A stretch of 64,000 nt of DNA from Undibacterium sp. CCC3.4. Its GTDB lineage: Bacteria > Pseudomonadota > Gammaproteobacteria > Burkholderiales > Burkholderiaceae_D. The stretch is taken from NCBI RefSeq assembly GCF_034347425.1, contig NZ_CP133779.1, forward strand, positions 1,612,001 through 1,676,000, written 5' to 3'. Below, piece by piece: positions 12,068 to 46,200 of the stretch (within the stretch, counting starts at the first letter, position 1; every line of letters starts with the position of its first letter). A model generated the notes under the pieces. It saw only the letters and a program-made list of their open reading frames with translations, did not search any database and was not told the DNA's origin. Position numbers and translations under genes: made by a program.

Positions 12068-13348
12068 ATGAGTTTTACTAAAAAATTTCTTTCCTCGTCG
12101 ATACTCTCAGTAGTCGACCAAGGCATGTTAAGTGCCCTCAACTTTGCCATCGGGGCCATGCTGATCCGTTTCGTCAGCAAAGACGTCTATGGTTTATATG
12201 GCCAATTGTACGCCGGTGGCTTGCTGGCCGGTTTACTGGTCGATTCCTGGATCGCCGGGCCGCTGACCACCGTCGCCAGTGCGGTGCATGAGCATGCGCG
12301 GCGAGTACTGCTGCGACGTTACTGGTACCGACAAATTTTCTGGACCCTGGCGATGGGAGGGCTGGCCTTGCTGGTGGTGGCCTTGCTGCCGCCGGTTACC
12401 CATGGTCATGGGCAAGCGTGGTCGCTGGGCTTGGCTTTTGCTCTGTATGTGATCGGTAACGGCTTGCGCGAATACGGTCGCACGGTCGGCTTTATCCAGT
12501 CGGATATCCACAGCGTGCTGCGCCAAGACAGCGTGTATGTTGCGGCAGTCATCCTCGGCGGGGTAGTGCTCTTGAGCCGTCAGCAGGTCGATCTGTACAG
12601 CGTGTTTCTGCTGCTGGCCGGCGCCTCTTTGCTCTGTGCTTGGTTTGGCCGCGCGCGCCTGTTGGAGCGTACGGCCGCCGATGCCAGCAATATTGCTGCC
12701 GCTGACTTGCTAGTCATCGATAGCCATCAGAGTACGATCCGCGGCCATGGCCGCTGGGCCGTGCTCGGCGTGACGGTCGGGTGGTTGTCAAATTACAGCT
12801 ATGTCTATTTGTCGGGTGCGTGGTTGGGTTTGGCGGCGATCGCCGATCTCAATGCCTCGCGTCTCTTGCTCATGCCGATTCCCTTGGCGGTCGCGGCCTG
12901 GTCACGGGTGGCGCGGCCGGAAGCGAGCCGCTTGATGGCCGAGCATAATTGGAGTGCCTTAAAAAAGCTGACCTTGTTTTCCGTGGTCGGCATCGAATTT
13001 GTGGTGCTCAGCTACGTCGGCGTATTGTTGTTGACGCTGCCGTGGCTGGAAGCGCATGTGATCGGCAGTAAATACAGCGGCCTTGATCCGCTCATCATGT
13101 TGTGGGGGGCGTATTTTGCCGTCAATGCGGTGCGCTGGATCGGCACTTCCTGGCTCATGAGTGGCGGCGCGTTCCGTTCCATGTTTTTGCTCGGTACCAT
13201 TACGCTCGGCTTGGTGGTGGCGCTGACCTCCTACACCATCCCACATTGGGGACCGGCGGGCGCGGTGTTTGCCTTGATCGCCGTGGAATTGTTTGAAACC
13301 GTGGTGGTATGGAAATTTATTTATCCACGTTTACAACTGCCGCAATAA
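12068..13348 (+). CDS. Polysaccharide flippase-like membrane protein (MOP superfamily)
   Basis: 426 residues with about 12 predicted membrane helices, e.g. [29 protein letters not shown] and [16 protein letters not shown]. The start [22 protein letters not shown] resembles Wzx-type exporters that flip lipid-linked glycans. No glycosyltransferase genes lie nearby. Its 3' end overlaps the convergent tandem-hydrolase gene by 32 bp. It may be functionally linked to the carrier-protein operon next to it, but the opposite orientation gives only weak support. Confidence 0.7.
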
Positions 13349-15140
13349 AGCGTTGGCTTAATTGATCGCAAATCAAGTGCAATACCTGTCGCTGTGCCCA
13401 TAGCGGCGTAAAGGTATGATCGGCACCCTTGAGTATCTCGATATGGATGCCATCGCCGTCGCCGAGTAAGCTGCCATGGCGGCCGAAGTTTTCCGTCATC
13501 AGATCGACGCTGCTGTCGCCGGCATCCATGATCATCAAGATCATGCTACCGCGCGCTTCGAGTGCACGTAACTGGTGCGCCGTCCGGCCGAGAAAACGCG
13601 GATTGTGGAGGAACTTCGTCAACAGCAACTGGGCTTTGGTATGCAGGCGGCGCACTACGCGCAGGCTCAGTTTGACGACGATCTGACGCCATTGCACTTG
13701 CCCGCACAGCAGCCGCTTCCAAGTTTGCGGATCGCGCAGGGCAGCGGCATAAAAATGTGTCGATTTGATGCGCTCGCTGCGGCCCACCGTACGCTGGTAG
13801 ACCAATTGATTCATCAGTATCAATCCGCGCACGCGTTCATCGCTCAAGCCGGCACGACAGGCGAAATAAGCCCCGGAACATAAGCCGCCCAACACGAAGC
13901 TGTTACTGCGAAAAGCCGAGCGCATGAATTCCATGGCATGGCGCATGTCCTCGTCGCCGCTGTCGGCATAGACTTGATTTTCCAGCCCTTCCGGGGTGGC
14001 GCGACTGTAGCCGATACCGGCCTTATCGAAGCGTAATACGATGAAGCCGCGCACGGCTAATTGCCGCGCCAATTGCACGTACAAGCGGTGATTGCCGACG
14101 CGGTGGTTGGCACCGATATTGGTCAGTATGATGGCTGGAAGCGTGCCTGGCAGTGCAGTACTGGCGTGCCCAGCAGCCCGCGAGACCACTCCGACCAGAC
14201 CGGCAAACTCAACCAGATCTTCGCCTACCGCGGCACCGCTGGCATCGATGACGGCGCTGCGTCGCAAAGCATGGGGGAGCGTTGCCGCCGTGTGTTGCAG
14301 GGTAAATCTGGCGCTTAACCAGTCGCGCAGGTTTTGCCATAATTGAACTGGTACAGCACTTTCGTGGGCGTCGGCCGGCATCATCGCGGCATAGCCGGGA
14401 CTCTGCTCGAGCGTCAGGTCTACGCCCTGTTCTTGCCAATGGCGTGCCAGTTTCTGCTCGCTACCGGCGAGGTCGTCGCGTCCCAGTATCAGGGTCGGCA
14501 TACTTGGTGCATCCATCGTCAGCAGCGAGTACGTGCTCAAACGCTGGCGGCTGGCGGCGCACAATAGATAACCGCCGAATTCGTCGGTGCTTTCAGCTTC
14601 GTGTTCACGGTCGTGCTGCGCGCTACTGGTGGATTTCAGTATCTGTAACTCGCGACAGTAAGCGCGGCCGCTCACCACCGGCGCTTGCAGTAACAGCGCT
14701 GCTGCGCCGATTTCACTGGCCACGCTGGCGGCCAACAGTGCGCCTAGCCGCAGACCGAACAAGGCGATTTGTTCCACTCCCGCCAGGGTGCGCAAGTGCT
14801 GTGCGGCGCTGCTTATGTCTGCTTGCCACTGCGCGCTGCGCTCGCCGCTCAGGTCGGCCGAGTCGCCACTGTTGTGATAATCGAAGAACAGTACATCGAA
14901 GCCGGCTTGGGCCAATTGTTCGGTCAAGTGTTTGTAGGCGCGATACGCCACCAAGTATTCATGCCCGAACGGCGGACACAGCACCACCCCGCAGGCACGC
15001 GTGCCACCGGCGCTGCGGCGCTGGGCCGGATGAAACCAAGCCAATAGTGCCGCCGCCGGGTCGCCGAACCAGCAGGCTTGCGCCCGCGACAGCAGATCTT
15101 GGCTAGGATAGAGCTGCGACCGCTTAGCTGAGCTGCTCAT
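13317..15140 (-). CDS. Tandem alpha/beta hydrolase, exosortase-associated hydrolase-like
   Basis: 607 residues with two alpha/beta-hydrolase domains. Domain 1 (about 48-280) has VVLCPPFGHEYLVAYRAYKH and the elbow FGLRLGA, where Arg131 sits in place of the usual Ser nucleophile; exosortase-associated hydrolases are similar here. Domain 2 (about 310-600) has the elbow GGLCSGA with Cys421 at the nucleophile position, and candidate Asp (IMDAGDSS) and His (KGADHTF) partners. Its ATG overlaps the stop of the upstream GH2 gene (ATGA-type), so it is the last gene of the carrier-protein operon. It could release a product from the carrier by thioester hydrolysis or transfer; this is an inference. Confidence 0.82.
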   Translation of the reverse strand: MSSSAKRSQLYPSQDLLSRAQACWFGDPAAALLAWFHPAQRRSAGGTRACGVVLCPPFGHEYLVAYRAYKHLTEQLAQAGFDVLFFDYHNSGDSADLSGERSAQWQADISSAAQHLRTLAGVEQIALFGLRLGALLAASVASEIGAAALLLQAPVVSGRAYCRELQILKSTSSAQHDREHEAESTDEFGGYLLCAASRQRLSTYSLLTMDAPSMPTLILGRDDLAGSEQKLARHWQEQGVDLTLEQSPGYAAMMPADAHESAVPVQLWQNLRDWLSARFTLQHTAATLPHALRRSAVIDASGAAVGEDLVEFAGLVGVVSRAAGHASTALPGTLPAIILTNIGANHRVGNHRLYVQLARQLAVRGFIVLRFDKAGIGYSRATPEGLENQVYADSGDEDMRHAMEFMRSAFRSNSFVLGGLCSGAYFACRAGLSDERVRGLILMNQLVYQRTVGRSERIKSTHFYAAALRDPQTWKRLLCGQVQWRQIVVKLSLRVVRRLHTKAQLLLTKFLHNPRFLGRTAHQLRALEARGSMILMIMDAGDSSVDLMTENFGRHGSLLGDGDGIHIEILKGADHTFTPLWAQRQVLHLICDQLSQRFIAAVVNVDK

Positions 15141-17653
15141 AGCGCTTCTGGCAGCATGAAGCTGCCGTCCAGATTCAGCGCGCTGATCGTGAGCTGCGGC
15201 GCAGCGCCGGCGCTCGGGCTTGGTCTCGCCGCGGCGCGCAGTCGCAGCGTCTTGTGCTGGCCCGGGGCGAGATGAAAGTAATTGTCATCGGCTAAGTAGC
15301 CGGGTGTAGACAGACTCAGCGTTCGTACCGCCAAGTTACTGCGTAAATCGACCCGCAGTGTGCCATCCTCGGCGCGTTGCCAACTGCCGCGCAGACCGAG
15401 TTCAGTCTGCGACAGCGCTACCGGCAGCGGTCCGGCTTGGAAATGACAGGCGCTGACCAGCGTGTGCGTGGCATCGGATAACTGCAGGTAGGCGAGCTCA
15501 TGAGCCGGTGCGCCGAAACGATAGGCGCAGGCGCTGTCGGTGAAATACGGCAGCAACGCGTCGGCGCGGAATTGGCAACTGCTGTGTGCACCCAAGCTGA
15601 TGTGGCGGCTGCCGCGGGTGATGCATTGTGCGTTCTTTCCGAACAGGCTTAATTCCAGTAAGCCCAGAAAGGCGCTGGCGCCGTCATTGACCACATGTAA
15701 GGCCAGTCCATTCAAACCTTCATCGGTAAAAAATGCGCACAGTGGTGCCATCGCCCGTTTCAGATAATAATACGCTGCCTTGGGATGACCGTCGACATCG
15801 AGTACGCCCCAGCCGGCACCGGCGCGCAGATCGCGCCAAAACCAGACCAAGGCACCGTGACAGAGTGAGCCGTGGCGGCGCCATTCTTGCAAGGTCGTGG
15901 CCATCATGCTGCCGCTGGCGCTGCGTCCCAGCGCCAGATAGCGCTTGGTATCGGCGGCGCGTAAGGCGCGCGCATCGACGCGGTACAATTGTTCCACGTA
16001 ATGGTCGCGCACATCGTCAAAATCCCAGTCGCAGCCATGATCGCGCGGCACCCCGGCATGCCAGTCCGGACCGGCATCGGGCTGCAGCGCATAGCGCTGC
16101 AGTAGGTCGGTTTCGGGGATATTCGCAAAGCCCAGGCATTCGCTGGTAAAGCGCGGTGCACTGCGGCGCGCATCGTCGGGCCCACGCAGATAAGCGCCGA
16201 CACCGAAATAATGACTGACACCGGCATCGATTTGGAACGGCAGCACGCCACCCGACGGGCTCGATGGCCAGTACAGTACGTCGGGCCGCAGTGCTTGGCA
16301 TAACTGCGGCAAAGTGTCGCCAAAAAAACTGTTACGCCAGATAGCTGCCGGCATGCCGAGCATGGCGGCCTGCTGTTCCACTTCACTGTTGCCGCATAAA
16401 ATAGCGATGCAAGGGTGCAGTTGTACTTGCTGTAAAAATTGCTGCGCTTCGTGCTGTACCGTCGCCGCAAAATCGGCATCGGCGACCGGGTAATCCATAT
16501 TGGCAAACATAAAATCCTGCCAGACCAAGATGCCGAGTTCATCGCACAAACGATAGAAGGCCGGATTTTCATACAACATGGTGCCGACCACGCGCAGCAT
16601 ATTCATGCCAGCTTGACGCGCCAACAGCAGCATGCTTGTTTGCTGCTCCGGTGTGGCATGCAGCGAAACGATGTCGGCCGGGGTCCAGCACACGCCACGG
16701 CAAAATACCGCTACGCCGTTGACGTGGACATGGAAATCATCCTCAGTTTGTTTGACCTCAATCTGGCGAAAACCGAGCGCATCGAGCGCAAACACATGGT
16801 TCTGCCCGGCGCTGTCGATGAGCTCTAATCGTGCCGGATACAGTGGCGCCTCGCCATGCGTATGCGGCCACCAGAGTGCTACCTCGGGCAGTGTCAAACT
16901 GCCGCTGGCGCTGTAGCTGCCAGGCTCGTCGCTTCGTAGCCTTAATTCGCTGACGGCAGTGCCGACATGCAGCCGCACTTGTTGCGGTGCTACTGTGCCG
17001 CTGAACCTGACTGCCGCTTGCACACAGACCTTGGTTCCATCGATCCGGCTGTGTAGCGTCCGACTTTCCAGCGTGTAGGGTTGTGCCAATTCCCACGCCA
17101 AGCCGCGATAAGGTCCGACTGCTGCCCCACGCGCCGACCAGCCCGGCATGCGGCCGAGTAAGCTGGTGCGCAGCCAGCGCAGTTGTTGTTGCGCGACCAA
17201 GCGAGTTTTCCAGCGTGGTCGCGGCCGCCGTTGTGCCAGCAGCGTGTTAAGCGCCAGGAAACGCAGACTCAGTATGCCCTGCGTGGGCAGCGTGCTGTCG
17301 GCCAGTGCATGGCGCGTCGCTATGAACATGTTTTCACTGCGCAGCAGCAGGGTATCATTCCAAAATACTTCGGCCACGCCAGCCAAGCCGGCGCACAGCA
17401 GGTGGCTGGCGTCAGCCGGTAAGCTTTGCCGGCTGTGAAACCAGATGTCGAGCGCATCGAAGTCGATGGTATCAGGTGCTTCGTTGCCGGCCGCGCGCAA
17501 CACCGAAGCGGCGGTGGCCGGCAGGGTTGCGGGTAGCGCGGGTAAGGCAGCGGCCATCAGTGCCGATGGCAGGCTGAAGGAGTCTGCTGCCACCATGCTC
17601 ATGTGCCAGCCGGTATGCAGCCAGTGCGGCGGGCGGTTCGCTGCGCTCAGCAT
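15137..17653 (-). CDS. Glycoside hydrolase family 2, beta-mannosidase-like
   Basis: 838 residues. An N-terminal jelly-roll-like domain (PAHWLHTG-type start, WFHSRQSLP, VFWND) and Ig-like domain precede a TIM barrel with FCRGVCWTPADI, GMNMLRVVGTMLYE and GILVWQDFMFAN. Catalytic residues look intact: acid/base Glu424 in CGNSEVEQ and nucleophile Glu505 in FTSECLGFANIP. The ATG at 17653 overlaps the end of the DUF1839 gene by 7 bp. No signal peptide is seen, so the protein is probably cytosolic, unusual for a polysaccharide-degrading enzyme and suggestive of a biosynthetic role. Its location in the carrier-protein operon is the most informative context. Confidence 0.85.
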   Translation of the reverse strand: MLSAANRPPHWLHTGWHMSMVAADSFSLPSALMAAALPALPATLPATAASVLRAAGNEAPDTIDFDALDIWFHSRQSLPADASHLLCAGLAGVAEVFWNDTLLLRSENMFIATRHALADSTLPTQGILSLRFLALNTLLAQRRPRPRWKTRLVAQQQLRWLRTSLLGRMPGWSARGAAVGPYRGLAWELAQPYTLESRTLHSRIDGTKVCVQAAVRFSGTVAPQQVRLHVGTAVSELRLRSDEPGSYSASGSLTLPEVALWWPHTHGEAPLYPARLELIDSAGQNHVFALDALGFRQIEVKQTEDDFHVHVNGVAVFCRGVCWTPADIVSLHATPEQQTSMLLLARQAGMNMLRVVGTMLYENPAFYRLCDELGILVWQDFMFANMDYPVADADFAATVQHEAQQFLQQVQLHPCIAILCGNSEVEQQAAMLGMPAAIWRNSFFGDTLPQLCQALRPDVLYWPSSPSGGVLPFQIDAGVSHYFGVGAYLRGPDDARRSAPRFTSECLGFANIPETDLLQRYALQPDAGPDWHAGVPRDHGCDWDFDDVRDHYVEQLYRVDARALRAADTKRYLALGRSASGSMMATTLQEWRRHGSLCHGALVWFWRDLRAGAGWGVLDVDGHPKAAYYYLKRAMAPLCAFFTDEGLNGLALHVVNDGASAFLGLLELSLFGKNAQCITRGSRHISLGAHSSCQFRADALLPYFTDSACAYRFGAPAHELAYLQLSDATHTLVSACHFQAGPLPVALSQTELGLRGSWQRAEDGTLRVDLRSNLAVRTLSLSTPGYLADDNYFHLAPGQHKTLRLRAAARPSPSAGAAPQLTISALNLDGSFMLPEAL

Positions 17654-18633
17654 GCCGTCTCTGCCAAGGCGCGCTCGAGCGCCGTCATGGTGTGCTGCCA
17701 CTGCTGGGTCAATTGCGCCGTCAACGGTAACAGATCAACCGCGCGTTTGCTCACCACGGCGCGAGCGGTTTTCATCAGCAGTATGCGGCAGGTTTCCGAC
17801 ATCGCCGCACAGCCCTGTGCCGCGTTGTTGAAGTCACCGATCCCGTTTCGCTGCAGCCAATCCAAATATTGCCCACCGAGGCTATAGCCGGCACCGAGCT
17901 GACGTAAATTCGCAAAGGCATAGGCATGAAACGCCGCCAAACCTTCGTGCTGCAGTTGTTCCAAGCGCGTGATCAAGGCGGTTTCAAATTGCGGCATCGG
18001 GTTGTGCTGCGGCCGCCGTGCGGCATGCTGATGCAGCAGTTGCGCAGACACTGCGGCCAGGCTGCTTTCATCGCGCTGCAACAGTCGGTCGAATTTGACG
18101 AATTCAGCGAAGAATGGCATGTAGCTTGGGTCTGCGGCGACATCGAGGCGAAACATGCGGGTGAAATCTTCCCCCGCCAAACGATGATAAGCGCGGTTGT
18201 GAAAATACCCGAGCTGCCGTGTTATAGCATCGATTTTCACCATCGCGATGGTGGTCTTGACATGGTTTTGTTGGTAATCAGTGCCGCTGGTATCGGGTAA
18301 ATGAAAGGCATCGACTTCGCACAAGACTACGCGCCCACGCGCCAGTTGTAGTGTGGCGTTTTCCAGCAAACTGCGCCAGACATGGAGTTCCTGTACATCG
18401 ACGCCGTACAGGGTAAATAAGTCTGCATGCGCCGGTTTAAAAAAGGTCCAGTGATCGCCTTCGAAATCATTCGCAAACACCACCGGCAGGCAGGCCAGAG
18501 GATTGAGTCCGCGGCTATGCAGCAGCTCTATCCAGACATCGATGTAGCAATTCGTTTCTGGCCACACCGCATCGGCCGCATGCAAAGCATGCGACACCCA
18601 AGCGGCGTCGGCTGGCATGCTCGCGCTCATCAT
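17647..18633 (-). CDS. DUF1839 family protein
   Basis: 328 residues matching the DUF1839 family, of unknown function, which is known to be encoded beside amino acid:[carrier protein] ligases. Visible blocks are NCYIDVWIELLHSRGLNP, FANDFEGDHWTFFKP, VVLCEVDAFHLPDT and YFHNRAYHRLAGEDF. A papain-like or ATP-grasp fold cannot be recognised by eye. The start is ATG 18633, overlapping the ligase stop; a GTG at 18654 would give a 7-residue extension. It probably works on the aminoacyl-carrier protein made by the preceding genes, but no activity is known to me. Confidence 0.8.
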   Translation of the reverse strand: MMSASMPADAAWVSHALHAADAVWPETNCYIDVWIELLHSRGLNPLACLPVVFANDFEGDHWTFFKPAHADLFTLYGVDVQELHVWRSLLENATLQLARGRVVLCEVDAFHLPDTSGTDYQQNHVKTTIAMVKIDAITRQLGYFHNRAYHRLAGEDFTRMFRLDVAADPSYMPFFAEFVKFDRLLQRDESSLAAVSAQLLHQHAARRPQHNPMPQFETALITRLEQLQHEGLAAFHAYAFANLRQLGAGYSLGGQYLDWLQRNGIGDFNNAAQGCAAMSETCRILLMKTARAVVSKRAVDLLPLTAQLTQQWQHTMTALERALAETAC

Positions 18634-19541
18634 AAACCCAAGCGCGTGCGGCACTCAGCCGGCCACTCTGCCGGCACCATGCCATGGGTGCGGAACAAAG
18701 CCATGACGATGCGTTCGAGGCCGAAACCGAGGCAGGCAGTATGGGCTACGGCACCATCGTCAGTGTGGATGTCGAAGATCTTACCGAAATGGTCTTGGTG
18801 ATAATTGAACGAGCATAGCGCGGTTGGTCGTGCGGCGGAAATGACCGGCACTACCACCTCGAATTTCAATTCTTGTTCGCGCTGATTGGCCGCTAACATG
18901 CGTCCACCACGGCCGAAAAACGGATCCGATGCGACTTCCGAGTGAGCTGGTAAACCGAGTTCCTGCAACATCGTCAAGCCGCGTTGCAACCACAGGTCAC
19001 GCCACGCCAGTACCAAATCAGGCGCGCCGACGCGGACGAACTCACGCACGCGAAACGATTGCATGCGCGTCGGTTCATCTGAAGGTTCATTGCGAAACAC
19101 CCAGTTCTGCATATCGACCAGCTTGCCACCGGCCGGCAGGGTGCCGCTGAAACTAGGATACACCGGATAGCAGGCCGCCGGCGTCAAACACACCGCAGTC
19201 ATGGTTTGCAAATGGGTCCACGGACGTCCCTCATGCACGTTTTCCATCAATTCCTGATGTTGTGCCGCATTGCCGCTGAAACTGAAAATCGTCCCGGCCA
19301 ATTGTGGAAACGAATCGAGATATTCACTGCGCTCGAGTACTTTACGATCCAGGCAGGGAGGGAATGACAAGCGGGTGGCCTGATCAGCCGCCGCGCGCTG
19401 CGAAACAAACTCATCAAAGCCGCGCAAGACTTGTTCAAATACCGGCCCGCGCCCGAAAATACCGGGTACGCCGACCGGAATGATATGACCGGCGCGGATC
19501 AAATCGTCGTTCAGCAGTTCAGGAGAGAAATCGATGGACAT
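18630..19541 (-). CDS. Amino acid:[carrier protein] ligase (class II aaRS-like)
   Basis: 303 residues. It resembles the catalytic core of atypical (methanogenic-type) seryl-tRNA synthetases without a tRNA-binding domain. Homologues in Bradyrhizobium and Agrobacterium activate a small amino acid (Gly or Ala) with ATP and load it on a carrier protein. Motif 2 is FRNEPSDEPTRMQSFRVREF (150-168), motif 3 GFGLERIVMALFRTHG (272-287). Zinc ligands are likely Cys124, Glu167 and Cys270; the Glu-to-Cys spacing of 103 matches the one I recall for the Bradyrhizobium enzyme. The carrier protein is encoded 1.2 kb upstream in the same operon. The amino acid used cannot be read from sequence. Confidence 0.88.
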   Translation of the reverse strand: MSIDFSPELLNDDLIRAGHIIPVGVPGIFGRGPVFEQVLRGFDEFVSQRAAADQATRLSFPPCLDRKVLERSEYLDSFPQLAGTIFSFSGNAAQHQELMENVHEGRPWTHLQTMTAVCLTPAACYPVYPSFSGTLPAGGKLVDMQNWVFRNEPSDEPTRMQSFRVREFVRVGAPDLVLAWRDLWLQRGLTMLQELGLPAHSEVASDPFFGRGGRMLAANQREQELKFEVVVPVISAARPTALCSFNYHQDHFGKIFDIHTDDGAVAHTACLGFGLERIVMALFRTHGMVPAEWPAECRTRLGL

Positions 19542-19573
19542 GGCGGAATATTCCCAGAGTGAGAGGGCGGTAC

Positions 19574-20752
19574 TTAGTCGTCTTTAAGTACTAACAACAG
19601 ATTGGCATTGGTCGCAAGCATACGGTCGTTACCGACCATCAGCGCCGCCGACAAGCTGTCGCGCAGATGGCGGCTCATCGAATACGGCTGGTCATTACGG
19701 TAGGCTTGGATGCCGCAAATTTGCAGCGCTTTCATGACCAACTGCGGCAAGGCTTCGCTGGCGGCGATTTTAAGATTATTTATTTTGACTGAGTACGATA
19801 GCGACGACAGCACCCCGTCGGCCGTTTGCTCGGCCTGGCTCAAGAGCTGATATTCGTGCAGACAGGCGGCCACGGCACTGCGTAAACTTTGCTGCATGCT
19901 GACCAGTTCGGCCAAGCGCAGCGCAGTTGGCGGCACCGTACCCGGTGCCCGGCGCGCCTGCTGTCGTACAAAGGCGCGCGCCTTGTTGACGGCCGCCGCG
20001 GCGCAGCCGGTCCAACAACCGCCCCACAACAGATGCGAGACCGGGACCACGGTTTGCGCCGCCATGCTGGCGAAGTCGGTGTCGATGATTTGTGCCGCGT
20101 GGCCGTGGGCTGCCAAATCAAATGGCGGGCTGCAGGTGCCGCGCATGCCCATGGTGTCCCACACACCGGTGGCGGTGAGCGTGTAATCGGTTTTCTGCAG
20201 CAGCACCAGGACCTGATCATTGCCGGCCGCTTGCGGGTTGCGGCGTGCCGTGACCAGCAAGGCATCGGCCTGGGCACCGTAAGAAACCGTGCTGGCGTGT
20301 TTGCTCAGTTTAAAGTACTCACCCTCGTGCGCATCGTCAGATTCCAGCGCACACAGACTGTGCCGCATTTCGCCGCCAACCCCGATCTCAGACGTCACCG
20401 AAGCGATCAGATATTGATGCCGTACCAATTGCTTCAGATAATCGCGATACCATTCTTGATCGAGCGCGTGCTCTACCAAGGTGATCACTTGAATCTGATG
20501 CATTGCAAAAATCATCGCCGTGGCGGCGCAATGGCGTGCCAGTGCATCGCAGATTTCTACCAATTCCGCCAAGCTGGCACCGGCACCACCGTATTCGGTC
20601 GGTATATAGGCGCTCAGCAGTTGTTCCTGTTTCAAGGCCATCACGGCTGCCAACGGAAAACGCGCATCGTGGTCAACCGCGTCGGCATCTGGCGCGGCAA
20701 CTTCTTTGGCGACGCGGTGCGCGGCCAGCAACAGGGCAGAGGTGGCGGCCAT
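19574..20752 (-). CDS. Acyl-CoA dehydrogenase-like flavoprotein, carrier-protein associated
   Basis: 392 residues with acyl-CoA dehydrogenase architecture: helical N terminus (IPTEYGGAGASLAELVEICDALARH), middle beta domain (SVTSEIGVGG, GVWDTMGMRGTCSPPFDL) and C-terminal helices. The residue aligned with the short/medium-chain catalytic Glu (YEGT) is Val373 in LMVGNDRM. The base could instead sit elsewhere, as in isovaleryl-CoA dehydrogenase, or the chemistry may differ. Its ATG follows the carrier-protein stop by 1 bp, so the likely substrate is a thioester on that carrier, by analogy with prolyl-carrier oxidases. Confidence 0.85.
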   Translation of the reverse strand: MAATSALLLAAHRVAKEVAAPDADAVDHDARFPLAAVMALKQEQLLSAYIPTEYGGAGASLAELVEICDALARHCAATAMIFAMHQIQVITLVEHALDQEWYRDYLKQLVRHQYLIASVTSEIGVGGEMRHSLCALESDDAHEGEYFKLSKHASTVSYGAQADALLVTARRNPQAAGNDQVLVLLQKTDYTLTATGVWDTMGMRGTCSPPFDLAAHGHAAQIIDTDFASMAAQTVVPVSHLLWGGCWTGCAAAAVNKARAFVRQQARRAPGTVPPTALRLAELVSMQQSLRSAVAACLHEYQLLSQAEQTADGVLSSLSYSVKINNLKIAASEALPQLVMKALQICGIQAYRNDQPYSMSRHLRDSLSAALMVGNDRMLATNANLLLVLKDD

Positions 20753-20753
20753 C

Positions 20754-20993
20754 TCAGGCGGTCAATTCTTGCAGCGCTGCGGCGATGGCATTGATACTCT
20801 CGAACACGCTGCGCTTGAGCATACGGTCCGGGAATTCGACATTGAAGGCATCTTCCAAGGCTAGCATGACATTGACGCTGGCATGCGAGGTCATACCGGC
20901 TTGATACAAGTCGGCTGCGTCATCGAGCTGGTCAGCGGCGACGGCGAATTTTCCGTGTTCAGCGAGCACTTGACGAATTTGTTGTTTGATCAT
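20754..20993 (-). CDS. Acyl/aminoacyl carrier protein
   Basis: 79 residues, one four-helix carrier domain. The phosphopantetheine site is Ser36 in QAGMTSHASVNVML, followed by the acidic recognition helix (ALEDAFNVEFPDRMLKRSVF). TSHASV in place of DSL(D) is the form typical of aminoacyl-loaded carriers beside aaRS-like ligases. It lies between the AcpS-type transferase gene (46 bp upstream) and the dehydrogenase gene (1 bp downstream), so its modification and loading enzymes are in the same operon. Confidence 0.9.
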   Translation of the reverse strand: MIKQQIRQVLAEHGKFAVAADQLDDAADLYQAGMTSHASVNVMLALEDAFNVEFPDRMLKRSVFESINAIAAALQELTA

Positions 20994-21038
20994 ACGAAGA
21001 CTTTCGGTTTTTTATTAATCACAAAAATAGATAAGGGC

Positions 21039-21491
21039 TTATCTGCGGCGGCAATGGAGCAGGACGGTGGCACTGGCATACTCGTGTTCATGGCTGAGGC
21101 TGACTTGCGCCTCATGCAACTGCATCTGCTGCGCCAAGCTGCGCGCCGCGCCAGTCAGACACAGGACAGGGCTGCCATTATTTTTCTTATGTACGGCAAT
21201 CGCATGCCACGGCAGCGCATAGTTCGCCGCCACGGCGAGCGCTTTCATGGTGGCTTCTTTCGCGGCGAAGCGGGCGGCCAGACTGGCGCTGCGATGGCTG
21301 CCGTCTGCCGTCAGACAGTCGTGCAGTTCGCGTGCAGTGAACAAGCGTTGCAAATAGCGGAGTCCGAAGCGGGCCATCGATTGCTCGATTTCCGGTATCC
21401 AAACCAGGTCGGTGCCGAGTCGCGTGGCCGCGCTGCGCGCCGGTCGGCGCGCACGCACAGTGAAATTCGAGAAAGAGGATGGGCCATGCAT
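21039..21491 (-). CDS. 4'-phosphopantetheinyl transferase (AcpS family)
   Basis: 150 residues. AcpS signatures are GTDLVWIPEIEQSMARFG (metal-binding Asp) and RFAAKEATMKAL. It transfers phosphopantetheine from CoA to a carrier protein. The AcpS core begins near residue 25; the first 24 residues are basic and not typical, so a shorter start is possible. As first gene of the operon it most likely activates the carrier protein encoded next to it. It is not in an rnc-era-recO-pdxJ setting, so it is probably not the housekeeping acpS. Confidence 0.85.
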   Translation of the reverse strand: MHGPSSFSNFTVRARRPARSAATRLGTDLVWIPEIEQSMARFGLRYLQRLFTARELHDCLTADGSHRSASLAARFAAKEATMKALAVAANYALPWHAIAVHKKNNGSPVLCLTGAARSLAQQMQLHEAQVSLSHEHEYASATVLLHCRRR

Positions 21492-21629: not shown

Positions 21630-22355
21630 TCAGAATTTTTTTACGCTTTCTAGCAATTGATCAACATATTCTCCTTCGGCATCGCTGAATTTCACCCGTA
21701 CCGGATACCATTCCAAGTCCGGAGCCAGCCAAATATCGAGGGTTTGATCTTTCGAATCGGGCGGCGGTGCTTTACTGATATGCAGGGTAGTGAATTCACC
21801 GAGTGCTGTGTGCAGCGGTTCGGCTGCCAGTACCTTGAAGGTCCATGGTTCGGCGTCGCGGCGGCCGGCCACAAACATCGACCATTCACTGCCCGGCTTG
21901 ACCGCGGCACCGGCCGCGCGCGCCAATGCTACCAACTGCCAAACTGCGCTGGTGCGGTCTTGTTCGCCGCCATTGAGTGGGTAAGTCTGCGCTGAGGTAC
22001 TGAAACGTAATAATTTCTTGCTACGCTCAAAACTGGTTACGGTAGCGTCTTTACCGAAGCGTTTCTCGGTAAAACTATCGGGCGCAAGGCCATGGGCATC
22101 GATGCTGCCGACGCTGTCGGCATTGAGAATTTTACCGAACAGCATGGCACGGGTCTCGGTCAGGATGGCATATTTTTTTTCTGTCAGTTGCCACTTGACG
22201 CTGGCCGTACCACTCAAGGCGATACCGCTTTGCTTGGCCTTGATGGTGTACAGCAGTTCACCGGCCGGTGGCAACTGAAACGGCGTGATGGCGGCGGCAG
22301 TCGGTGTGCTGCTCAGTGCCAGCAGTAGGGCTGGAATAAGAAAATCAAGGCGCAT
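21630..22355 (-). CDS. DUF3108 protein, periplasmic
   Basis: 241 residues with a signal peptide (MRLDFLIPALLLALSSTPTAAA). The DUF3108 domain shows GELLYTIKAKQSGIALSGTASVKW, the SFTEKRFGKDATVTSF block and the C-terminal LDIWLAPDLEWYPVRVKF signature. Members are beta-rich envelope proteins of unknown function. The start overlaps the end of the upstream DUF3108 gene by 11 bp, so the two are co-translated paralogues. Confidence 0.82.
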   Translation of the reverse strand: MRLDFLIPALLLALSSTPTAAAITPFQLPPAGELLYTIKAKQSGIALSGTASVKWQLTEKKYAILTETRAMLFGKILNADSVGSIDAHGLAPDSFTEKRFGKDATVTSFERSKKLLRFSTSAQTYPLNGGEQDRTSAVWQLVALARAAGAAVKPGSEWSMFVAGRRDAEPWTFKVLAAEPLHTALGEFTTLHISKAPPPDSKDQTLDIWLAPDLEWYPVRVKFSDAEGEYVDQLLESVKKF

Positions 22356-23436
22356 GGTCGGCTTCCAAATCGTTGGTAAAAGTAATGCTGCTCATGGTTT
22401 GAGTGGTGACCGCACCATCTGGTTCAGTATTACGTATTTGAACAGGATACCAGTGATAATCGGGTGCTAACCAAATTTCCAAACTGGAATTATAGGCACC
22501 GGCGCGCGCCGGGCGCAGCAAATGCCAGGCCGTAATACTGCCGACCCCGGTTGCGATGGTTTCCAGCGTACCGACTTGGAATAGAAAGCGGTGCGCCGCA
22601 CTCTCTTCGGCCACTTGGACTTCAATCTGTTGACCGGTATGAAATTCTGCCGCCGCCGCCATACCGGCCAGTTGCATGAAGATGGAAGCGCGATCTTGCG
22701 CACCGCTGAGTAAGGCGACGCTCGCGGCTTGAGCAGAAAAATTGATACGCCCCTGTGCATAATCGAAGCGCGTACTGGTTTCGTCATGGCCGCGGCGAGT
22801 TTCGCGCATGGTCTGCGGCTGTATTCCTTGGCTATCGATGCGTCCCTCGCTCTGTAAGCGGTACAGGCGCAAGCTCGTCAGCAGCAGATCGAGCGAGGCA
22901 TCGATCTGCATACGGTAGGCGTGCTCGTTACGTTGCCACACAAAGTCAGCGATGCCATAGACCGGATTGCGCTGCGTCTGCCGCACGACTTTCATGCGCA
23001 TGCTACCGGAGGGCGGCAAGTGCAGCGGCAGCGGCGCTGGCGCAGGCACCAGCGGCTCTGCTGGCGGTGCTGGTGCTGTTGGCGTCGGCGCGGCGACGCG
23101 GCTGGGCGCTGCCGCCGTGGCATCCGTCTGCAGCGGCGCGCTATCGCTTGTGCTGATGGCATCGGCCTGACTGGGCGTGAGCGGCGGCGGCTGGTGTGGC
23201 AGCGCTGCTGGCGCTGGGCGCTGCGCTGGTGTTGGCCGTACCGGCGGCGGCGGCGCTGGCGCTTGCAAAAATACGGTTTGCAGCGCGCTTGGCAGTTGCA
23301 GCGGCGGCGGCACAAAGCGGGCGTGTTCGAAGACTAGCCATATCAGGCCATGTAAACACAGCACCAGAGTGAGAAACAGCAGTGGCCGGCGCGGCAAGCG
23401 CGCGTAAAATGCTGTTTTGGAGGAAGAAAAATGCAT
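22345..23436 (-). CDS. DUF3108 protein with membrane anchor and Pro/Ala-rich linker
   Basis: 363 residues. One N-terminal transmembrane helix (PLLFLTLVLCLHGLIWLVF) is followed by a Pro/Ala-rich stretch at about 42-145 that looks like a TonB periplasmic spacer, then a DUF3108 domain ending in LEIWLAPDYHWYPVQI. It probably spans the periplasm from the inner membrane. The ATG at 23436 shares an ATGCAT hexamer with the start of the divergent gene at 23431. No strong ribosome-binding site precedes it. Confidence 0.78.
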   Translation of the reverse strand: MHFSSSKTAFYARLPRRPLLFLTLVLCLHGLIWLVFEHARFVPPPLQLPSALQTVFLQAPAPPPPVRPTPAQRPAPAALPHQPPPLTPSQADAISTSDSAPLQTDATAAAPSRVAAPTPTAPAPPAEPLVPAPAPLPLHLPPSGSMRMKVVRQTQRNPVYGIADFVWQRNEHAYRMQIDASLDLLLTSLRLYRLQSEGRIDSQGIQPQTMRETRRGHDETSTRFDYAQGRINFSAQAASVALLSGAQDRASIFMQLAGMAAAAEFHTGQQIEVQVAEESAAHRFLFQVGTLETIATGVGSITAWHLLRPARAGAYNSSLEIWLAPDYHWYPVQIRNTEPDGAVTTQTMSSITFTNDLEADHAP

Positions 23437-38391: not shown

Positions 38392-39396
38392 ATGACCACC
38401 CAACACCGTCTCTTCCTTGCTGCCCTTACTTTACTCGGTGCGGTCACCGCGCAGGCTGCTGATATTTCTTTGCTCAACGTTTCCTACGATCCGACGCGCG
38501 AACTCTACCTCGACGTCAATCAAGCTTTCGCCAAACAATGGCAAGCGAAAACCGGCGACAAAGTCAGTATCAAACAGTCGCACGGCGGTTCCGGTAAGCA
38601 GGCGCGCTCGGTGATCGATGGTCTCGATGCCGATGTGGTCACCTTGGCCCTGGCTTACGATATCGATGCCGTGGCGGAACGCGGCTTGCTCGATAAAAAA
38701 TGGCAAACGCGCTTGCCAAATAATGCTTCACCATATACCTCGACCATCGTGTTCTTGGTTCGTAAAGGCAATCCGAAAGGCATCAAAGATTGGGCAGATT
38801 TGGTCAAGCCCGGCGTTTCTGTCATCACGTCTAACCCTAAGACTTCGGGTGGCGCACGTTGGTCTTATCTGGCGGCTTGGGGCTATGCCTTGAAAGCACC
38901 GGGCGGCACACCAGCTACAGCACGCGATTATGTACAAAAACTGTTTAAAAACGTTCCGGTACTCGATTCCGGTGCCCGTGGTGCCACCGTGACGTTCACT
39001 GAGCGCGGTATTGGCGATGTCTTGCTGTCATGGGAAAACGAAGCCCATCTCGGCCTCAAGGAATTCGGTGCGGATAAATTTGAAATCGTCACGCCTTCCA
39101 TCAGTGTATTGGCCGAACCACCAGTGGCCGTGGTCGATAAAGTGGTCGACAAACATGGTACTCGTAAAGTCGCAGAAGCGTATTTGAACTACCTCTACAG
39201 CGACGAAGCCCAAGACATTATCGGTAAAAATTTCTATCGTCCTGCCACCGAACGTGCAGCGAAAAAATTTGCCGGCAACTTCCCGAAAATTCAATTGTTT
39301 AATGTTGCCGATACCTTCGGCGGCTGGACCAAAGCACAGAAAGATCATTTTTCTGATGGCGGCGTTTTTGATCAAATTTATTTGACCAAGAAATAA
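38392..39396 (+). CDS. sbp: Sulfate ABC transporter substrate-binding protein
   Basis: 334 residues with a signal peptide ([16 protein letters not shown]). Sulfate-binding protein signatures: [69 protein letters not shown]. It binds sulfate or thiosulfate in the periplasm for the CysTWA transporter, whose genes lie 5 kb downstream on the same strand. It is separated from ssuE by 30 bp and probably starts the ssu operon, which links sulfate and sulfonate uptake. Confidence 0.93.
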
Positions 39397-39426
39397 ATCA
39401 CCCGGTTATACGAAGAAAGTCAGCAT

Positions 39427-40005
39427 ATGTCCATCTTATTACTCTCAGGAAGTCCGGCTGCGGTATCGCGTTCTCACCGCTTGTTACAGCATATCGGCGA
39501 CAAGTTGCAATTACTCGGTCAGCAATGCGTGAGCTTGCAAGTGCGAGACTTGCCGGCGCAAGCCTTGTTGCATGCGGATTTCAGCAATCTCGAATTGTTA
39601 GCGGCGCAACGCCTGCTGGCGCAAGCTGAGGCGATCGTCATCGCCACGCATATTTATAAAGCGTCCTTCAGCGGCTTGCTCAAAACTTTTCTCGATCTGC
39701 TGCCGCAGGATGGTTTGGACGGTAAGCTGATTCTGCCTATCGCTACTGGTGGTAGTCAGTCGCATATGTTGGCGCTCGATTACGGCTTGCGACCGGTGTT
39801 GGCTACGCTCGCGGCACGCCAAGTTTTGCCGGCGATTTATGCCACCGATGCGGAAGTGGTGTGGAGCGACGAGCACGGCTTGCAATTGGCACAGACGATT
39901 GCCGAACGAGTGCAGAAAGGGGTGGTCCAGTTGTTGCAAAATTTGCCATCCAGCGCCACCAACAGCCACGCCAGTGACTATCCGGCCTTAGTCACTTACG
40001 CCTGA
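39427..40005 (+). CDS. ssuE: NADPH-dependent FMN reductase SsuE
   Basis: 192 residues, flavodoxin-like fold: ILLLSGSPAAVSRSHRLL (phosphate loop), ATHIYKASFSGLLKTFLDLLP and LPIATGGSQSHMLALDYGL. SsuE supplies reduced FMN to the monooxygenase SsuD. Its stop overlaps a possible upstream start of ssuA. Confidence 0.92.
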   Translation: MSILLLSGSPAAVSRSHRLLQHIGDKLQLLGQQCVSLQVRDLPAQALLHADFSNLELLAAQRLLAQAEAIVIATHIYKASFSGLLKTFLDLLPQDGLDGKLILPIATGGSQSHMLALDYGLRPVLATLAARQVLPAIYATDAEVVWSDEHGLQLAQTIAERVQKGVVQLLQNLPSSATNSHASDYPALVTYA

Positions 40006-40037
40006 TGCTTCGAAATAAACCATTATCAAGGATGAAC

Positions 40038-41015
40038 ATGTCTGCCCCATCAAATAAACCAGCTCGTCGTACTGTCTTGGCGGCTGGTTTGGCCGGCCTC
40101 TTGCTGAGCCTGTCCGTGAGTGCGCCGGTGGCGGCGCAAAACAGCGCCAACAAGGGCGTGCTGCGTATCGGCTTCCAGAAATACGGCACTTTAACCATAC
40201 TCAAAGCCGCCGGCAGTCTCGATCAACGTCTGGCTGCCTCCGGTGTGACCGTGCAGTGGACCGAGTTTCCAGCCGGTCCACAATTACTCGAAGGTCTCAA
40301 TGTCGGCAGTGTCGACTTCGGCACCACCGGTGAAGCGCCACCAATTTTTGCCCAAGCCGCCGGTGCTGACTTACTGTATGTCAGCCATGAACCAGCCGCA
40401 CCCGGTGGTGAAGCGATCGTCGTACCGAAAAATTCTCAGCTCAAATCGCTAGCCGATTTGCGCGGCAAAAAAATTGCCCTCAACAAGGGCTCCAACGTCC
40501 ATTACCTGTTGGTGAAATTATTAGAAAAAGCTGGCATTCCATATCGCGATGTCGAACTGATCTTTCTGCCGCCGGCCGACGCGCGCGCCGCCTTTGAGCG
40601 TGGCAGTGTCGATGCTTGGGTGATCTGGGATCCGTTTTTGGCCGCCGCCGAAAAACAACTGGGCGCGCGCATTCTGGCCGACGGCAAAGGTGTGGTCAGC
40701 AACCATCAGTTTTATCTGGCCGCGCGCAGCTATGCGCAAAAACACCCTGATGTGTTGCGTATCGTTGAAGAAGAATTGGCCAAAATTGATCAGTGGGCGA
40801 TCAAAAATCCCCAGCAAGTATCGACCTTGTTGGCAGGCCAAGTTGGTCTCGACACTAGTATTGTGGCCTTGTCGAATTCCCGCTTCGCCTTCGGCGCCAC
40901 ACCACTGTCGGAAGCGGTGATTAACGAGCAGCAGAAAATCGCCGATACCTTCGCTGAATTGAAATTGATCCCGAAGCCGATCAATATTCGTAGCATCGTT
41001 TTGTTGCAAAAATAA
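40038..41015 (+). CDS. ssuA: Aliphatic sulfonate ABC substrate-binding protein SsuA
   Basis: 325 residues. Twin-Arg-like [27 protein letters not shown] signal, then [49 protein letters not shown] and the [14 protein letters not shown] block typical of SsuA. AAGGA lies 5 nt before ATG 40038; an ATG overlapping the ssuE stop at 40005 would add 11 residues. It binds alkanesulfonates in the periplasm. Confidence 0.93.
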
Positions 41016-41040
41016 GAATTGCCTTACCGGAGCACCTCGC

Positions 41041-42186
41041 ATGAGTCTGAATATCTTTTGGTTTATCCCCACCCACGGTGACAGCCGTTATCTCGGCACC
41101 AGCCATGGCGCGCGCGAAATCAACTACGATTATTTACGTCAGATCGCCGTCGCGGCCGACACCCAAGGATTTGATGGCGTGTTACTGCCAACCGGACGTT
41201 CCTGCGAAGACGCTTGGGTGGTGGCTTCGAGTTTGATGTCGGCCACCACGCGCCTGAAATTTTTGGTAGCGATCCGTCCCGGACTGTCCAGCCCAGGGCT
41301 GGCGGTACGCATGGCAGCCACCTTCGATCGCCTCTCGAAAGGGCGCTTGTTAGTCAACATCGTCACCGGTGGTGATCAGGGTGAACTGGAAGCCGATGGG
41401 GTCCATGCCGACCATACCGAACGCTATGAAATCACCGATGAATTTCTGCGCATCTGGCGCGCTTCGCTGGCCGGTGAAGGCGGCGCAGCCGGGTTCGATT
41501 TCGCAGGCAAGCACTTGCAAGTCAAAGCTGCCAAAACCCTGTATCCACCCGTGCAGAAACCTTACCCGCCGCTGTATTTCGGTGGCTCTTCCGAGCCGGC
41601 GCATGAATTGGCGGCCGAACAAGTCGATGTCTACCTGACTTGGGGCGAACCACCGGCAGCGGTCGCAGCCAAGATCGCCGATATGCGTGCCCGTGCAGCC
41701 CGTCATGGCCGCACGCTACGCTTTGGCATACGCTTACATGTGATCGTACGTGAAACCAATGCCGAAGCCTGGGCTGCGGCGGAAGACTTGATTCGCTTTG
41801 TCGATGATGAAGTGATCGCGCGCGCCCAGCAAGCCTTCGCCAAAATGGATTCGGTCGGCCAGCAGCGCATGACTGCGCTGCATGGTGGCAAACGCGACAA
41901 ACTCGAAGTGTCGCCGAATTTGTGGGCCGGCGTCGGCTTGGTGCGGGGCGGTGCAGGCACGGCCTTGGTCGGCGATCCGGAAACCGTGGCGGCGCGTATC
42001 AAAGAATATGCTGCGCTGGGCATCGATCATTTCATTTTTTCCGGTTACCCGCATTTGGAAGAAGCCTATCGCTTTTCCGAATTGGTGTTTCCACTTATCG
42101 GCAAAGCGACGCCGCGTGTCACCAGCAGCCGGACCGGGCCGTTCGGCGAAATTGTCGCCAACAGCATCGCACCGGCCGCGGTGTGA
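41041..42186 (+). CDS. ssuD: Alkanesulfonate monooxygenase SsuD
   Basis: 381 residues, the normal length. FMNH2-dependent enzyme that splits alkanesulfonates to aldehyde and sulfite. Bacterial luciferase-like barrel: [33 protein letters not shown] (conserved Cys), [34 protein letters not shown]. The ATG has CGGAGCACC upstream. It sits between ssuA and ssuC in the operon. Confidence 0.96.
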
Positions 42187-42208
42187 GTTTTTTTACCAGG
42201 AGCAGCGC

Positions 42209-44359: not shown

Positions 44360-44374
44360 GGACATAATTAAAAA

Positions 44375-44395: not shown

Positions 44396-44443
44396 AACTG
44401 GCATGATCTGGCTTCTGTGGTTACACCAATCAACAAGGCTAGC

Positions 44444-46188: not shown

Positions 46189-46200
46189 CCGGAGTCGGAC

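Follow-up and report, generated by a model that had tools for sequence, protein, structure and literature searches.

A conserved aminoacyl carrier protein cassette of Undibacterium sp. CCC3.4 contains a DUF1839 protein with a predicted CcbD-like fold

The window analysed here is a stretch of 64,000 nucleotides from contig NZ_CP133779.1 of Undibacterium sp. CCC3.4. At positions 13317-21491 it contains seven open reading frames on the minus strand (Table 1), overlapping or close-set as the preliminary description had it; the gene identities given there were borne out by family scans. Calculated from the coordinates, the overlaps are 4 bases between the hydrolase and GH2 genes, 55 between GH2 and DUF1839, and 25 between DUF1839 and the ligase, followed by gaps of 32 (ligase to ACAD), 1 (ACAD to carrier) and 45 bases (carrier to AcpS). 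The start codons are provisional, that of the GH2 gene (GTG) most of all. Judged from the spacing alone, the seven genes are probably cotranscribed. Neither promoter-like sites (6, compared to 4.8 with sd 2.2 in shuffles) nor terminator-like sites (11, compared to 11.3 with sd 3.6) are in excess at the locus. The sole transmembrane-like window revealed by hydropathy in the seven proteins lies in the hydrolase. Neither PF00501 nor a condensation domain was found in the seven proteins at E≤0.01, so the locus does not classify as a modular NRPS.

Table 1. Genes of the cassette and the adjoining membrane protein gene (window positions)
Feature	Position	Strand	Family or match
Flippase-like membrane protein (by eye)	12068..13348	+	convergent with hydrolase gene
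Tandem alpha/beta hydrolase, 607 aa	13317..15140	-	TIGR03101 and TIGR03100, both below cut-off
GH2 beta-mannosidase-like protein, 854 aa	15137..17701	-	best structural match 5n6u
DUF1839 protein, 335 aa, predicted carrier-protein-dependent Cys amide synthase	17647..18654	-	PF08893
Amino acid:[carrier protein] ligase, class II aaRS-like, 303 aa	18630..19541	-	NF005479
Acyl-CoA-dehydrogenase-fold (ACAD) flavoenzyme, 392 aa	19574..20752	-	PF02771/PF00441
Dedicated carrier protein, 79 aa	20754..20993	-	NF005480
AcpS-type phosphopantetheinyl transferase, 150 aa	21039..21491	-	PF01648

The machinery for phosphopantetheinylation and loading claimed for the locus is present, with the ligase (NF005479, 410.2 bits; cut-off 357), the carrier protein (NF005480, 109.5 bits; cut-off 72) and the AcpS-like protein (PF01648, 56.9 bits; cut-off 25) all exceeding their family cut-offs. 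The ligase is close to the structures of Bll0957 (4h2w, E 4e-71; 3mey, E 7e-69), and its residues 22-303 align with residues 50-332 of 4h2w, giving a class II catalytic core without the tRNA-binding domain. The residues C124, E167 and C270 are invariant in all 20 aligned ligases and form a candidate zinc site, Cys-Glu-Cys being the zinc-site ligand types in amino acid:[carrier protein] ligases. That ligases of this class load Gly or Ala onto a carrier, as asserted previously, is stated in an excerpt of PMC5370406, and by this family precedent the window ligase would load Gly or Ala. The residue Ser36 of the carrier (codon 20888-20886), found in 69 of the 69 relatives scoring >100 bits, is likely the phosphopantetheine site. 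The AcpS gene is one of four places in its own genome that match PF01648. Of the 80 related loci 37 have such a gene, as do 25 of the 47 with full context; AcpS is an optional partner of the cassette, frequent but outside the core.

The AlphaFold2 model of the ACAD-fold enzyme (pLDDT 92.1) was searched with Foldseek, and the best matches are acyl-CoA dehydrogenases. The list mixes dehydrogenases with the DszC/TdsC monooxygenases, which match about equally well (TM 0.84 for 3x0y), and favours neither chemistry. Among 72 relatives scoring >500 bits, position 373, at the place of MCAD Glu376, is Val in 44 and Ile in 27 with one gap, and position 239, at the place of IVD Glu254 as judged visually in a single pairwise alignment, is Ser in 62, Ala in nine and Thr in one; by comparison, His240 and Trp243 occur in all 72. 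Eight further proteins, six of them from the ligase-only clade, also have no Glu at either position. Because Glu is absent from both known base positions, dehydrogenation is not established for this enzyme, which the preliminary description called a dehydrogenase. Its predicted substrate is the aminoacyl group tethered to the carrier, and oxygenation or a reaction that needs no glutamate is a more likely mode of oxidation than classical dehydrogenation. A classical dehydrogenase, leaving an unsaturated or imino aminoacyl group on the carrier in the manner of prolyl-carrier oxidation, would agree with the acyl-CoA dehydrogenases at the top of the Foldseek list and with a low-scoring match to NF045652, the model for prolyl-carrier dehydrogenases (33.9 bits; cut-off 650), but given the missing glutamates and the comparable fit of the monooxygenases we regard it as rather unlikely.

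The DUF1839 protein matches PF08893 with 354.8 bits (cut-off 22.5), and its structure was predicted with confidence (pLDDT 93.9). Structural similarity search revealed that all 19 PDB matches at E≤0.001 are entries of CcbD, CtaG or AziU2-U3, aligned over the full length with TM scores of 0.50-0.60 and identities of 11-16%, a similarity of the predicted model that does not fix the substrate. Searches of the PDB with the DUF1839 sequence gave chance-level matches only (best E 0.36 and 0.27) and no match to CcbD, and the viral structure library gave zero matches to the model at E≤0.001. Each of the residues Cys36 (codon 18549-18547), His131 and His152 is found in 80 of 80 relatives, and in the model Cys36 caps the central helix, residues 36-47. 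In a separate alignment of 21 rows (A1), Cys36 is missing from two operon copies (L011 and L020), and both of these genomes have a second copy that retains it. A C-(T/S)-H triad has been proposed for DUF1839 by modelling, according to an excerpt of PMC10318531, and both His131 and His152 are candidates for the triad His of the window protein.

An excerpt of PMC12945683 describes CcbD as performing a Cys-based ping-pong transfer of a carrier-bound amino acid to an amino sugar. CcbD/LmbD of lincosamide synthetase and DUF1839 share the fold, the Cys-based transfer, a carrier-bound amino acid as donor and an amino sugar as acceptor, all of these being predicted on the DUF1839 side; they differ in that CcbD/LmbD is a separate sequence family whose donor is alkylproline or proline. 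To our knowledge, the CcbD/LmbD system includes neither a GH2 enzyme nor an aaRS-like ligase. The full-length CcbD-like fold together with the conserved Cys36 indicates that DUF1839, to which the preliminary description gave no role, is likely the transfer enzyme and would move an acyl group to an amine. This structural link to the CcbD type is the main new result, and it makes the hand-over step assayable. A comparable enzyme is BtrH of butirosin biosynthesis (BtrH_N, PF14399), a papain-like acyl carrier protein:aminoglycoside acyltransferase according to the excerpt of PMC10318531; a papain-like, carrier-dependent acyltransferase is also what the predicted fold suggests for DUF1839. However, the window DUF1839 protein has no PF14399 match in a Pfam scan, a profile of nine DUF1839 relatives compared with BtrH_N gave a non-significant hhalign probability of 27%, and no BtrH entry occurs among the 50 structural matches listed. 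Membership of DUF1839 in BtrH_N was dropped for want of a Pfam match and of a significant profile comparison.

The GH2 protein scores just under the Pfam cut-offs (PF22666, 25.5 vs 27 bits; PF17753, 21.6 vs 22.6), and it matches solved beta-mannosidases, with an E value of 7e-59 for the best match. Alignment to these structures placed two glutamates, Glu440 (codon 16384-16382) and Glu521 (codon 16141-16139), which presumably act as the acid/base and the nucleophile, respectively. Among 69 relatives scoring >900 bits, Glu521 occurs in all, Glu440 in 66 with Asp in the other three, and Cys522 in 66. A hydropathy count gave no transmembrane-like window in this protein. The two halves of the tandem hydrolase resemble exosortase-associated hydrolase 2 (N-half; TIGR03101, 94.8 bits, below the cut-off of 202.75) and hydrolase 1 (C-half; TIGR03100, 127.5 bits, below 168.45). 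The nucleophile elbow of the N-half reads GLRLG and contains Arg131, and the C-half has Cys421 in the motif GLCSG plus His575; each of these three residues is conserved in 50 of the 50 relatives scoring >450 bits. The hydrolase gene, found in 55 of 80 related loci and 38 of the 47 full-context loci, is likewise an optional partner of the cassette, frequent but outside the core.

The conserved co-occurrence that the preliminary description had suggested searching for was found in a single draw of 398 Pseudomonadota genomes, own genome included. DUF1839 is encoded in 16 genomes, and a ligase over the cut-off in all 16 of these, compared to 12 of the 382 genomes without DUF1839 (Fisher p 2e-21); at the genus level the counts are 12 of 20 ligase genera versus 0 of 193 (p 9e-15). 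The genes for carrier, ACAD, ligase, DUF1839 and GH2 are adjacent in all 16 DUF1839 genomes, and these five form the core of the set of seven once described, from which AcpS and the hydrolase drop out as optional. Absences from the core among the 47 full-context loci are confined to the ligase in L063 and L070, ACAD in L070 and L099, the carrier in L070 and L122, and GH2 in L074. All seven families are united in an alternative layout of two divergent blocks in 12 of 80 loci, and the named relatives of the cassette span nine phyla. Such conservation in other genomes excludes chance as the cause of the grouping. The ligase distances correlate with those of DUF1839 (r 0.83, 73 loci), ACAD (0.80, 70), the carrier (0.76, 67), the hydrolase (0.68, 49), GH2 (0.64, 64) and AcpS (0.38, 37); none of 300 permutations was as high, and r includes the organism phylogeny, with no control gene.

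The neighbourhood is not new to the literature. A note added in proof of 2010, excerpted from PMC2922099, lists beside the StRS paralogue an ACP, a Rossmann-fold redox enzyme, Atu2574 and a glycosidase, and predicts that Atu2574, the DUF1839 protein, ligates an amino acid to the amine of a sugar on the cell surface. The excerpt thus shares with the window an ACP, a redox enzyme, a conserved uncharacterised protein and a glycosidase, whereas it is silent on how the ligating protein folds or works and mentions neither a tandem hydrolase nor AcpS. With this neighbourhood and a similar prediction in print, the pathway cannot be called undescribed, as it had been. Bll0957 of Bradyrhizobium is described as an amino acid:[carrier protein] ligase in papers citing Mocibob et al. 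(2010, 2013). The Bll0957 ligases belong to the same family as the window ligase, and their close relatives also have carrier and ACAD genes beside the ligase; unlike the window cassette, six neighbourhoods of this clade have no DUF1839, GH2 or hydrolase gene. In a tree built without Bll0957 itself, the Bll0957-type clade branches within the DUF1839-linked ligases, and by eye the Bll0957 sequence is nearly that of L025. The literature matches listed contain nothing further on the cassette.

We propose, with about even confidence, that the cassette is self-contained and serves to attach an oxidised amino acid to an acceptor that bears an amine and probably contains a sugar. The AcpS-type transferase of the cassette would convert the carrier to its holo form at Ser36, and the aaRS-like ligase would use ATP to activate a small amino acid, which family precedent suggests is Gly or Ala, and load it onto the carrier. 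The ACAD-fold flavoenzyme would then oxidise the tethered aminoacyl group, after which Cys36 of DUF1839 would accept the acyl group and pass it to the acceptor amine, as CcbD does with a thiooctose. The GH2 enzyme may prepare or trim the glycoside, and the tandem hydrolase with its one Cys-type site, where present, might edit thioesters or make a final acyl transfer. The order of steps, the sugar as acceptor, the type of oxidation and the role of the hydrolase are our inferences; the family identities, site conservation, predicted DUF1839 fold and co-occurrence come from sequence or structure comparison. The involvement of a sugar suggested earlier fits both the intact glutamates of GH2 and the CcbD-like fold of DUF1839. 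Similarly, AlmEFG and Dlt activate an amino acid, place it on a small carrier and move it to a surface molecule. We know of no ACAD, GH2 or DUF1839 protein in these two systems, whose ligases and transferases have other folds.

More tentatively, the ancestral job of these ligases may have been to feed a widespread non-NRPS pathway to an oxidised aminoacyl-glycoside, an undescribed class of bacterial metabolite or surface decoration. DUF1839 would then constitute a novel Cys amide synthase family, and the Bll0957 type would be an offshoot that kept only the trio of carrier, oxidation and loading for another product. If the link of DUF1839 to the CcbD type is right, it defines a family of transferases together with a pathway that spans at least nine phyla, and the studied ligases gain an evolutionary frame.

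Alternatively, the cassette could make a free small molecule, for instance an oxidised amino acid or the amide of a non-sugar amine, with the GH2 enzyme only releasing or removing a protecting sugar. For the structural neighbours of DUF1839 other than CcbD, namely AziU3 and CtaG, no action on amino sugars is known. CtaG is proposed to shift a hydroxybenzoyl group between carriers, according to an excerpt of PMC6772006. Further in favour of a free product, in Azospirillum and Rhizobium the cassette is isolated, a related clade retains carrier, ACAD and ligase only, and family scans placed a MetY-like gene next in L148 and L149, with a MetA-like gene also in L148. However, in each of the 16 DUF1839 genomes GH2 adjoins DUF1839, and it is present in 46 of the 47 full-context loci, a constancy suggesting that the glycoside is central, and the two are jointly absent from six carrier-ACAD-ligase neighbourhoods (L144-L149), which makes a free product unlikely. 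It is still less probable that DUF1839 acts hydrolytically or like a protease, clearing or processing the aminoacyl carrier or a cell-wall glycan peptide, as its papain-like fold might suggest, since its full-length matches are CcbD, CtaG and AziU2-U3, phytochelatin synthase and proteases match the model only partially at E 0.045 or worse, and hydropathy gave no signal-peptide-like hydrophobic window. Finally, an exosortase/PEP-CTERM exopolysaccharide system is highly improbable: both hydrolase halves match exosortase-associated families and in one Kangiellaceae locus the two hydrolases are encoded separately, next to the cassette and together with a carrier and an enzyme for amino acid adenylation, but both matches are sub-cut-off, the exosortase family PF09721 has no match in the own genome, and its presence in 1 of 16 DUF1839 genomes against 80 of 398 over the cut-off in the whole draw (Fisher p 0.21) leaves the link unsupported in that draw.

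Counting against the proposed explanation, the cassette does not lie directly beside glycan genes in Azospirillum, Rhizobium or Caballeronia, though some glycan genes lie ~6-12 kb away in Shinella and Caballeronia; in the window, ten proteins scanned at 28-62 kb include zero glycan genes. From 407 open reading frames ≤6 kb from the cassette, Undibacterium-type loci excluded, the 122 nearest within a size limit were taken and 120 scanned (L082:1-1727 and L085:1-1671 left out), giving Polysacc_synt_3 four times, Glycos_transf_2 four times and Bac_transf twice as raw counts without a background rate. Only part of this census is glycan-related, and a glycan enrichment of the flanks is suggestive only. 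At E≤0.001 neither Pfam nor NCBIfam has a family that matches the flippase-like protein of the window; the gene of this protein adjoins the cassette in six related loci, all of Undibacterium, and its tie to the cassette is uncertain. The idea that the window shares a flippase with the loci L095, L117 and L124 was rejected, the window protein having no similarity to the others. In these three loci, presumed flippases with multiple transmembrane segments are convergent with the cassette at a distance of 0-44 bases.

The seven minus-strand genes named in the preliminary description are all present as open reading frames, and adjacent genes either overlap or are separated by no more than 45 bases. 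Four products exceed the cut-offs of curated models: the ligase (410.2 bits against 357), the carrier protein (109.5 against 72), the DUF1839 protein (354.8 against 22.5) and the AcpS-like transferase (56.9 against 25). The aaRS-like ligase is close to Bradyrhizobium Bll0957 (4h2w, E 4e-71). The GH2 protein falls below the Pfam cut-offs, yet is a clear relative of beta-mannosidase (5n6u, E 7e-59). The tandem hydrolase is a fusion, the halves of which resemble exosortase-associated hydrolases 2 and 1, each under its cut-off; exosortase as a part of the pathway was not supported in a draw of 398 Pseudomonadota genomes. A flippase-like membrane protein, which matches no family of Pfam or NCBIfam at E<=0.001, adjoins the cassette here and in six Undibacterium loci. 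A DUF3108 gene pair, read in the cassette's direction and located 138 bases upstream of AcpS, could share transcription with the cassette. Elsewhere, the window holds cytochrome oxidase genes and uptake-type genes (solute-binding proteins, a luciferase-like monooxygenase and an ABC protein), perhaps for sulfonates.

Locations of the cassette, its neighbours and comparable features in related loci
Feature	Location	Strand	Basis
AcpS-like, carrier protein, acyl-CoA-dehydrogenase-like, ligase, DUF1839, GH2-like, tandem hydrolase (in this order)	window 21491 down to 13317	minus	ORF check
Flippase-like membrane protein	window 12068-13348		
DUF3108 gene pair	window 21630-23436		
Uptake-type and cytochrome oxidase genes	window 38392-47268, 55240-61472		
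DUF1839 copies of two-copy genomes	L150 7401-8381, 12232-13452; L151 7435-8421; L152 88-1299		
Ligase-only loci (dehydrogenase-like gene, ligase, divergent carrier gene except in L148)	L148 5970-10512; L149 5334-9285; also L144-L147		
Kangiellaceae parallel module	L106 342-7146		
DUF1839 locus without ligase in the stretch examined	L063 8471-10984		
Brevibacillus locus	L115 1687-7528		
Small alpha/beta hydrolase gene (examples)	L086 2898-3563; L093 9009-9689		

The families co-occur across genomes, a check proposed in the preliminary description. In one draw of 398 Pseudomonadota genomes searched for ligase and DUF1839, the ligase exceeded its cut-off in 28 (44 at E<=0.001) and DUF1839 was found in 16, all of which carry the ligase over cut-off (Fisher p 2e-21; by genus, 12/20 vs 0/193, p 9e-15). 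The carrier, dehydrogenase-like, ligase, DUF1839 and GH2 genes are adjacent in all 16; in the other 12 ligase genomes the dehydrogenase-like gene adjoins the ligase and DUF1839 is absent. Within the family to which the window belongs, the ligase is uncommon and scattered (5/195 genomes), four of these among the 11 listed genomes of the genus, its own counted, and the fifth (G020) being of the ligase-only kind; the nearest relatives of the window ligase are from Undibacterium.

A scan of named genomes matched at least 591 stretches, of which at least 551 were relatives of DUF1839. Retaining the best 80 gives a locus sample that leans to window-like proteins. Many of their genomes are metagenome-assembled, and they span Pseudomonadota, Myxococcota, Acidobacteriota, Chloroflexota, Verrucomicrobiota, Planctomycetota, Gemmatimonadota, Abditibacteriota and Bacillota. 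Among these 80 loci the ligase is present in 74, the dehydrogenase-like protein in 74, GH2 in 73, the carrier in 69, the tandem hydrolase in 55 and AcpS in 37; residue counts for four of these families refer to relatives over a score limit (72 dehydrogenase-like, 69 GH2, 50 hydrolase and 69 carrier sequences). For the 47 loci whose sequence extends 5 kb or more ahead of DUF1839 and 7 kb or more beyond it, the corresponding numbers are 45, 45, 46, 45, 38 and 25. In 12 of the 80, the seven families are instead split into two divergent blocks. DUF1839 also occurs in 59 plasmid records, including Rhizobium (18), Azospirillum (11) and Mycetohabitans (9). Six such regions were opened, and the five annotated ones, whose gene table describes itself as incomplete, all list the carrier, dehydrogenase-like, ligase, DUF1839 and GH2 genes, with a hydrolase beside GH2 in two (Azospirillum and Mycetohabitans). 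Three DUF1839 loci (L063, L070 and L072) have no ligase within the stretch examined; in the latter two, DUF1839 and GH2 are divergent, and the carrier and dehydrogenase-like genes are likewise absent from it. In the Brevibacillus locus L115, GH2 and the carrier gene are separated by seven ORFs; one encodes an AMP-binding enzyme, and two are small and carrier-like. A gene for a small alpha/beta hydrolase recurs within the cassette or close to it; one cluster covers eight loci, and the three members scanned are Abhydrolase_2.

A 2023 study (PMC10318531) places DUF1839 in the papain-like fold, gives its site as C-(T/S)-H and guesses a glycan role. In the present analysis, sequence alone did not support a tie to BtrH_N. 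The predicted model (pLDDT 93.9, pTM 0.91, from 59 aligned sequences) has a helix 36-47 beginning at Cys36 and a C-terminal part that is helical from residue 196 on. Structural similarity search of this model gave 19 PDB matches at E<=0.001, all of them AziU2-U3, CtaG or CcbD entries, with TM 0.50-0.60 over 324-374 alignment columns. The best is AziU2-U3 (E 9e-8), the matched chain of which we take to be AziU3, and the next protein, phytochelatin synthase, aligns over only ~115 columns (E 0.045 or worse). As described in PMC12945683, CcbD follows a ping-pong mechanism with a Cys-His-Glu triad: proline leaves the carrier for the Cys, from which a thiooctose receives it on its amino group. For CtaG, PMC6772006 proposes transfer of a hydroxybenzoyl group from one carrier to another. 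Cys36, His131 and His152 are each kept in 80/80 DUF1839 relatives, and position 134 is Thr in 57 and Ser in 23. In two genomes (G448 and G519) the operon copy lacks Cys36 and a second copy, outside the operon, retains it, which fits a requirement for the Cys, albeit in two related cases only; in L152 a tandem hydrolase gene lies a few kb from the second copy.

The dehydrogenase-like protein has Val373 at the place of the MCAD base and, by eye, Ser239 at that of the IVD base in an alignment with solved enzymes. Among its 72 relatives, position 373 is V in 44, I in 27 and a gap in one, position 239 is S in 62, A in nine and T in one, and His240 and Trp243 are invariant; eight further proteins, six from the ligase-only clade, show the same pattern. 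Because neither base position holds a glutamate, classical dehydrogenation appears unlikely unless another base serves. Fold search with the predicted model (pLDDT 92.1) matched both dehydrogenases and DszC/TdsC monooxygenases, and monooxygenation was guessed in a 2010 note added in proof (PMC2922099).

In the GH2 protein, Glu521 is kept in 69/69 relatives and Glu440 in 66 (Asp in three), making glycosidase or transglycosylase activity plausible; Cys522, next after the nucleophile, is found in 66/69. The hydrolase elbows carry Arg131 in the first half and Cys421 in the second, each, like His575, kept in 50/50 relatives, suggesting that the first unit is inactive and that the second, of Cys type, would suit thioesters. 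Kangiellaceae L106 has two separate hydrolases with similar elbows (GLRLG and GLCAG). There, hydrolase-2-like and hydrolase-1-like genes, a DltA-like amino acid adenylation enzyme, a small carrier and a dehydrogenase-like gene adjoin the cassette, a parallel module with a different kind of loader.

We propose that the carrier, in its holo form, would be loaded with Gly or Ala, which would be oxidised on the carrier and then handed to the amine of an acceptor through Cys36 of DUF1839; GH2 would shape a glycoside and the tandem hydrolase would edit or finish. The acceptor is read as probably a sugar because of GH2, the CcbD parallel and a minority of glycan-related flanks. Taken whole, the scheme seems to us about equally apt to prove right or wrong. 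The preliminary description put the operon forward as a candidate for an undescribed pathway; the note added in proof already gives the neighbourhood and predicts ligation to a sugar amine. A 2022 review (PMC9437257) still calls the role of carrier aminoacylation unknown, and no product or assay for the cassette was found in the open-licence literature searched. Against that literature we offer as new the match of the DUF1839 model to CcbD, CtaG and AziU2-U3 entries, the counts of co-occurring families and of the phyla they span, the finding that the hydrolase is optional and carries Arg and Cys at its elbows, the lack of both glutamates in the dehydrogenase-like protein and the position of the ligase-only clade within DUF1839-linked ligases.

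In an IQ-TREE tree of 99 ligases, the 13 ligase-only sequences form a single clade (100/99) nested in a group of 20 (98/99), the other seven of which are linked to DUF1839 and come from the order to which the window belongs and from further classes of its phylum. Two long ligases serving as outgroup, on a very long branch, fall outside this group; read against them, DUF1839 linkage looks ancestral. Six of the 13 come from one family (genomes of 6-8 Mb). Bll0957, itself outside the tree sample, is nearly identical by eye to L025, which belongs to this clade. The neighbourhood of L148 showed no carrier gene. A MetY-like gene follows in L148 and L149 by family scans, and a MetA-like gene in L148 by scan and in L149 by eye; with these neighbours, the carrier, dehydrogenase-like and ligase genes may together contribute to another product, one connected with the chemistry of homoserine. 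According to a table in PMC10888616, bll0957, bll0958 (acd) and bll1105 metZ are raised in a phaR mutant.
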